This document shows, in pieces, positions 3,399 through 4,285 of a DNA stretch of 52,061 nt. The notes below the pieces were generated by a model that was given only the letters and a program-made list of their open reading frames with translations, was not told the DNA's origin and made no database searches. Positions within the stretch are counted from its first letter, which is position 1, and each line of letters begins with the position of its first letter. Position numbers and translations under genes: made by a program. This DNA is from a virus: positions 1-52,061 of the IMG/VR virus record IMGVR_UViG_3300036862_000022; one strand, given 5' to 3'.

Positions 3399-4285
3399 CC
3401 ACGGCGCATGAAGGCGCAGTAGCGGCAAGCAGCGGCATCTACTTCGTGCAGGTGCCCACCTACCTCCTCGATGCCGTGTACGACCCCGACAGCCCCGTCA
3501 ACGCGGTCGCGTTCGCACTCCACGCGCACATCGTCCGCCGGTACGTGTGGCGCCGCGCGATCTTCCCCTCGCACGCCACTCTCGCCCAGGAGACCGGCCA
3601 GAGCATCAGCTCTGTGCAGCGCTCCCTCAGGGCGTTGAAGGCGGCCGGAGCTATCGACTGGCGCACGTGTGTGAACAGCCGGGGGAAGACGTCCAACGAG
3701 TACGCCGTGGCCCCGGTGGACCCCTTCCAGTTCGACTGGGGACGCCGTGATCCCAGGGTGGTTCCGGTCACTTCTGACCGGAACCCATCGGTCACTTCTG
3801 ACCGGAACCCATCGGTCAAAAGTGACCGACGAAGTGAGAGAGAACTAGAAGTGAGAGAAGAGGTGAGTGAAACAACCTCAGGGGCCGATGCGGTCATCGA
3901 AGCCGAGGTTGTCACGGATGATCCTCTTGTCGCTGACGCGACGGCTAACAGGGCAGACGTGGAGTCTCTCTGCCAGGAGCTTGCGGATCTGATCGTCGCG
4001 AACGGTAGCCGTCGGCCGACGGTCACGAAGAAGTGGCGGGATGCTGCGCGGCTGATGATCGACCGGGACGGTATCCCCGTGGACATGATCATGGGTGCTA
4101 TCCGGTGGTCACAGGGGAATGACTTCTGGAAAGCTCACATCCTGAGCATGCCAAAGCTGCGGGACAAGTACGACACCATGCGTCTTCAGGCCGAATCCAG
4201 CCCGGTACGGCGCGTGGCCACCACCGACAGGAAGTTGCAGGACGCCAGAGCCCTGGCTGACAGGCTGAGGGCGCAAGGGAGGTAA
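3395..4285 (+). CDS. Winged-helix replication initiator / replisome organiser-like protein, 296 aa
   Basis: The GTG start overlaps the stop of the antitoxin-like gene. Residues about 55-105 form a winged helix-turn-helix (FPSHATLAQETGQSISSVQR, SLRALKAAGAIDWRT). The linker at residues about 124-145 is encoded by three palindromic repeats and reads as a repeated SDRNPSV. An acidic stretch follows, and then a C-terminal domain (about 190-275, with KKWRDAARLMIDRDGIPVDM) of the type seen at the ends of phage replisome organisers. The order of DNA-binding domain, repeat-encoded linker and partner-binding domain resembles lambda O and SPP1 G38P. A helicase-loader-like gene follows directly. The family assignment comes from architecture, not a database match. 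Confidence 0.72.
   Translation: MTTAHEGAVAASSGIYFVQVPTYLLDAVYDPDSPVNAVAFALHAHIVRRYVWRRAIFPSHATLAQETGQSISSVQRSLRALKAAGAIDWRTCVNSRGKTSNEYAVAPVDPFQFDWGRRDPRVVPVTSDRNPSVTSDRNPSVKSDRRSERELEVREEVSETTSGADAVIEAEVVTDDPLVADATANRADVESLCQELADLIVANGSRRPTVTKKWRDAARLMIDRDGIPVDMIMGAIRWSQGNDFWKAHILSMPKLRDKYDTMRLQAESSPVRRVATTDRKLQDARALADRLRAQGR
3765..3880 (+). other. Candidate replication origin inside the initiator gene
   Basis: Three palindromes CGGTCA-N4-TGACCG occur at 3765-3780, 3789-3804 and 3813-3828, exactly 24 bp apart. They are followed at 3829-3880 by a purine-rich tract with 29 A/T in 52 bases, well above the surrounding AT content. Iterons within the initiator gene next to an AT-richer segment are the layout of lambda ori in gene O. 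Seen: the repeats and the composition. Inferred: the origin function. Confidence 0.65.

Follow-up and report, generated by a model that had tools for sequence, protein, structure and literature searches.

A candidate replication origin of palindromic iterons within the winged-helix initiator gene of a viral genome

The window analyzed here is the complete viral record IMGVR_UViG_3300036862_000022, a stretch of 52,061 nucleotides. From about 3.0 kb one set of genes, which includes the initiator, runs rightward and another leftward; the features considered below lie on the rightward side:

3395–4285 (+): replication initiator gene, 296 aa with a GTG start; winged-helix domain, disordered linker and helical C-terminal domain, assigned from PHROG and Pfam matches and AlphaFold
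3458–3709 (+): winged-helix DNA-binding domain, residues 22–105; recognition helix SISSVQRSLRAL; pLDDT mostly 70–93
3765–3780: iteron 1, palindrome CGGTCA-CTTC-TGACCG
3789–3804: iteron 2, palindrome CGGTCA-CTTC-TGACCG
3813–3828: iteron 3, palindrome CGGTCA-AAAG-TGACCG, reversed relative to iterons 1 and 2 as judged by the spacer
3829–3880 (+): A/T- and purine-rich tract (29/52 A/T, 77% purine), putative DNA-unwinding element
3953–4273 (+): helical C-terminal domain, residues 187–293; pLDDT mostly 84–98; presumed helicase or loader contact
4288–4731 (+): putative helicase loader, a small helical protein at the position of the helicase or loader gene; homologue directly downstream in 40/73 loci

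The product of the 3395–4285 gene matches phrog_391 ('replication initiation O-like', 3e-25), phrog_22834 (1e-34) and phrog_2514 ('DnaD-like helicase loader', 6e-18), and its C-terminal region matches phrog_4880 ('replisome organizer'). The first-pass annotation had described a winged-helix initiator, which agrees with these PHROG matches to replication initiators and with the AlphaFold model: an ordered winged helix at residues 22–105, a linker of very low confidence at about 110–186 that is predicted to be disordered, and a helical domain at 187–293. The structures closest to the winged-helix domain in Foldseek are generic folds, namely ArsR/MarR winged helices and the DnaD N-terminal domain 2v79. 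The Pfam match to HTH_36 (PF13730) falls just below the family cut-off (E = 7e-5, 23 bits versus 25); the N-terminal domain has no match to Phage_rep_O (PF04492) at E up to 1, and RepA_N (PF06970) is absent among the Pfam matches. By its predicted domain type the initiator is HTH_36-like, not Phage_rep_O. The C-terminal domain is conserved across 73 viral loci, where it is joined to several unrelated DNA-binding domains. A nucleotide search of phage records found no relative of the window. The start of the initiator gene is overlapped by a Phd/YefM-type antitoxin gene (3201–3398, +), with no partner toxin seen adjoining it.

Three exact copies of CGGTCA-N4-TGACCG begin at 3765, 3789 and 3813, precisely in the 24-bp register first noticed, and the record holds no other copy. 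They stand in frame within the initiator gene and encode VTSDR, VTSDR and VKSDR, all within residues 124–145 and thus inside the AlphaFold linker, which places them between the DNA-binding and C-terminal domains as had been proposed. The third site is effectively opposite in orientation, because its spacer reads AAAG where those of the first two read CTTC. An in-frame repeat with an eight-codon period could in principle reflect only a repeated peptide (VTSDRNPS), the DNA repeats being incidental. Among 200,000 synonymous recodings of the linker drawn from this genome's codon usage, all three palindromes were present in 0, two in 82 and one in 7,236. Since synonymous recoding never gave all three, the palindromes are evidently selected as DNA and not as peptide. 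The repeats use Ser codons ending in T, ACT and AAA, which in this genome account for 10% of Ser, 7% of Thr and 4% of Lys codons, respectively. A looser recoding test, counting any palindrome with arms of at least 6, yielded p = 0.002 for the window and p = 0.001–0.025 for four relatives. The peptide-only explanation was already contradicted by the loss of the palindromes on recoding, by relatives that keep the DNA sites with different residues and in different frames, and by the predicted disorder of the repeat segment; we give it practically no weight.

Relatives of the DNA-binding domain (54–60% identity) are joined to other C-terminal domains and carry related sites. Loci L131 and L132 combine the helix QSESAVKRQL with GGTCA-N4-TGACC sites in registers of 24/24 or 30/24/24 that encode other residues; L136, located in a Kitasatospora genome, has the same sequence as L132. 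Loci L133 and L134/L135 combine the helix GLGERTIARLL with TGCCA-N4-TGGCA sites in the same 30/24/24 register. In this GERTIARLL branch both arms have changed together, from GTCA/TGAC to GCCA/TGGC, despite the resulting changes of V to A and D to G in the protein, and such a joint change is what would be predicted for a symmetric protein-binding site. The residues encoded at the sites range from VTSDR through VKSDP, VRNDL and VKNDP to AKSGS and AKNGR. An alignment of homologues had been named beforehand as a check, and in it the 24-bp spacing and the palindrome are kept as the encoded residues vary. Scrambled palindromes under a preserved protein repeat would have spoken against an origin; the opposite is seen, with arms co-changing with the recognition helix. 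The gene downstream of the initiator in L131 encodes a DnaB helicase (PF03796, 5e-68). A further search of viral contigs for the window's own family of DNA-binding domains yielded no new members. L132 and L172 share one 87-kb contig, and L131 and L182 one 135-kb contig; each contig has two different initiators, of which one shares its DNA-binding domain and the other its C-terminal domain with the window's initiator, and in the Kitasatospora mediocidica genome these two initiator types lie 29 kb apart. The initiator of the window has the look of a hybrid between these two types.

The 52-bp tract following the palindromes has exactly the 29 A/T positions originally counted. Ranked among all 52-bp windows after it had been pointed out, it falls in the top 0.09% by A/T content and the top 0.05% by purine content, and both values are reached together at 2e-5 of positions. 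In 33 of 51 homologues kept by crude k-mer redundancy filters, where 9.0 would be expected, the 40-bp stretch of the gene richest in A/T falls within the final 130 nt that precede the C-terminal domain (P = 1.5e-13, independence assumed). Four initiators of Gordonia, Streptomyces and Micromonospora phages (L227, L234, L225 and L233) carry GGGGAACA/GGGAACAG repeats, rich in purines, in the linker that leads to the C-terminal domain, and in Gordonia phage Norvs repeats of this type have an 8-bp period, which crosses frames. These repeats are possibly the unwinding element of that subgroup.

A scan of viral contigs for the tandem palindrome alone returned 115 loci, compared with 15 when the palindrome was scrambled without changing its composition. 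Among 45 host ORFs left after crude k-mer filters for redundancy, 26 match phrog_270 ('replication initiation protein'), 20 match phrog_391 and 19 match HTH_36. Initiators (two Phage_rep_O and two HTH_36) are present even among nine scrambled-control ORFs, and tandem palindromes within genes would seem to mark initiators in general. In the tandem-palindrome genes the distances between sites cluster at 22–24, 33–34 and 44–46 bp, close to whole numbers of helical turns; 38 of the 67 distances are not divisible by 3, so that neighbouring sites are read differently (GVTxDP versus GSPxTP).

Homologues of the C-terminal domain in the 73 loci have different DNA-binding domains and often different palindromes or repeats in the same linker, among them GATGGCAA..TTGCCATC, GGGGTGCAG..CTGCACCCC, CCCCGCAG..CTGCGGGG and CCGGTCA-AAA-TGACCGG. 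A generic count of 8-mer repeats, insensitive to gapped palindromes, was significant in 18 of 70 homologue linkers, and some homologues have no clear repeats by this count. No iterons were seen in gp15 of Streptomyces phage VWB, which has the gene downstream of the initiator, and the only plasmid homologues are in two Enterococcus plasmids, both matching weakly in the C-terminal part. A second winged-helix family (25 loci), also found with more than one C-terminal domain, has one half-site per recognition helix: VRRSV with CCGGTCA, VRMAV with CCGGCAGA, VQTAV with CCCCGCAG, VIKAV with GGTACGG, and VVTAV, VVAAV or VVVAV with GGTCCGG. This pairing is descriptive and ignores kinship among the loci.

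Each palindrome of the window could also fold into a stable RNA hairpin with a stem of 6 bp and a loop of 4 bases, and none of 200 shuffles folds as well as the region itself (z = -3.5). The repeats might accordingly be hairpins in the early transcript, acting in translation, processing or antitermination, or hairpins in single-stranded DNA. Yet no Rfam family was found, and G.T and A.C mispairs occur twice each among 14 single-mismatch neighbours, a tiny sample with no sign of RNA wobble. The centres of related palindromes are between 1 and 4 bases long, a variation compatible with a dyad in DNA, and the half-sites track a DNA-reading helix. We consider hairpin function very unlikely.

The slot immediately 3' of the initiator is occupied in 40 of the 73 loci by a homologue of the 4288–4731 product, mostly overlapping the initiator stop codon. 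Loci with another gene in this position often have a DnaB helicase (L154, L179, L186), a DnaC/IstB-type AAA+ protein (L152, L207) or G39P (L209, PF11417). The next gene had been called loader-like. The slot logic of the relatives favours this description; sequence and fold give it no match. The product has no Pfam match, to PF11417 (the SPP1 G39P loader family) or otherwise; its fold has no PDB match at E below 2.8, to G39P or otherwise; and a profile comparison of its family with the G39P-like slot neighbours reached 5% probability. The 4288 product is thus a putative helicase loader by position only.

Palindromic sites and an ArsR/MarR-like winged helix are typical of repressors, and the palindromes might be operators through which the protein, mainly a transcription factor on its own gene, blocks read-through or regulates the early operon. 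Every exact site, however, lies mid-gene and none at a promoter, and a whole-record search found no second iteron array, which argues against promoter operators. The PHROG matches are to replication initiators, and the AT-rich stretch and the helicase/loader slot are conserved along with the sites. Regulation as the main function is therefore improbable; autoregulation could be a side effect of the iterons.

We favour replication initiation: with a probability of roughly 0.85, 3765–3880 is the replication origin, embedded in the initiator gene. The sequence statistics place DNA-selected palindromes that co-vary with the recognition helix in a conserved layout of iterons, AT-rich tract and helicase or loader gene; from this we infer iteron binding, unwinding, helicase loading and origin firing. 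Dimers of the 3395–4285 product, suggested by the symmetry of the iterons, would bind the three sites through the winged-helix domain. Once the resulting nucleoprotein complex has formed, the A/T- and purine-rich tract next to it would open, the C-terminal domain and the 4288–4731 product would load DnaB, the helicase of the host, onto the strand thus exposed, and the host's polymerase would carry out the remaining steps. The large ORFs scanned match terminase, portal, head/capsid, tape measure, tail and lysis/endolysin proteins, a Rad52-type annealing protein (49514–50953, −) and proteins of unknown function. None was seen to encode a polymerase, a primase or a replicative helicase, in keeping with the earlier remark that the virus lacks its own helicase and polymerase.

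The element would work like lambda O/ori and SPP1 38/oriL. In ori-lambda and the origins of Stx phages the iterons lie in the middle of the initiator gene with an AT-rich region beside them, the next gene (P) loads the helicase, and extra iterons in such O genes merely lengthen the encoded protein (PMC7466680). The window likewise has repeated putative initiator sites inside the initiator gene, between its DNA-binding and C-terminal parts, and an AT-rich element directly adjoining them at a position conserved in homologues; its next gene, like P, may encode a loader. It differs from lambda in that its initiator is without PF04492, its sites are three 16-bp palindromes at 24 bp and its downstream gene is not recognisably P. 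The proposal of a lambda-O-type origin holds for the layout, which the homologue tests bear out, and not for the protein, which is probably of the HTH_36-like type. The divergence of rightward and leftward genes at about 3.0 kb would be a further likeness to lambda if the record is, as we suppose, circularly permuted; no terminal repeat was found in it. GC skew has no sign change at 3.8 kb and is uninformative as an origin marker.

The likeness to gene 38/oriL of Bacillus phage SPP1, with its gp39 loader (PMC6316719), includes the match of the initiator's C-terminal region to phrog_4880. SPP1, in contrast, has its own DnaB-type helicase gp40 and a second origin, oriR, whereas neither a helicase nor a second array was found in the window. 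The Rep of staphylococcal plasmid pPR9 has a phage-like pfam13730 (HTH_36) N-terminal domain, which together with its origin replaced the RepA_N domain and origin of the pSK41 type as one segment of ~500 bp, the C-terminal domain staying in place; in the RepA_N plasmid pSK41, four Rep boxes lie in the DNA coding for a dispensable linker (PMC5703833). The window resembles pPR9 in its probable HTH_36-like domain type and in cassette behaviour. Both plasmids, however, are from Firmicutes and have a different C-terminal domain, and the likeness rests on domain type and layout, not on Rep-box sequence. Among actinophages, Gordonia phage Norvs has an initiator (gp105) directly followed by a gene annotated 'helicase loader' (gp106), and gp56 of Gordonia phage Ashertheman has two GCAATTTGCCAGA repeats 24 bp apart; both differ from the window in their DNA-binding domains and repeats, and their tables do not annotate the origins as such. 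In mycobacteriophage RepA replicons, repA is enough by itself, and the authors, who found no repeated motifs, suspected the origin within repA or beside it (PMC7157519); we saw no iteron array in repA of mycobacteriophage Miko.

These comparisons incline us to the view that in winged-helix initiators, of actinophages and beyond, the DNA-binding domain and its own iterons form a travelling cassette joined to unrelated helicase-recruiting C-terminal domains, and that sequence collections probably hold a readable recognition code, as in the pairs of VRRSV with CCGGTCA.., VRMAV with CCGGCAGA.., VVTAV with GGTCCGG.. and VIKAV with GGTACGG... Each gene has its binding sites within itself, which is what would make the code readable. 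The origin layout is of a known kind; covariation of helix and half-site across self-contained genes was not found described in the open-access literature searched. Actinophage origins are barely mapped, and here a specific 116-bp element is predicted down to exact residues and bases. Many protein–DNA pairs can be read directly, so the recognition code of the winged-helix class and the cassette-swap model become testable, and such initiator genes are candidate small replicons for actinobacteria.

Several other features of the genome deserve mention. The repeat GTACC[CA]GAACC[AG]TT has seven copies (<=1 mismatch) confined to the early region, at 1193(−), 2452(−), 2504(−), 2542(−), 3046(+), 3092(+) and 3140(+); the plus-strand copies face the rightward genes that follow from 3201 on, three of the minus-strand copies face the leftward gene 1261–2394, and the set resembles an array of early promoters or operators. 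Positions 14000–18000 have a strong local skew (GC to −0.30, AT to +0.44) with no matching feature. A ParB-N domain protein (7690–8187, +; phrog_8071, 1e-30), with no ParA seen, might have a partition role or be a nuclease or methylase partner. The genome also encodes tRNA-Leu(caa) at 9377–9447, tRNA-Thr(cgt) at 9838–9911 and, at 11708–12571 (+), a TerF-type vWA domain protein (PF10138, 3e-59) in a phage.
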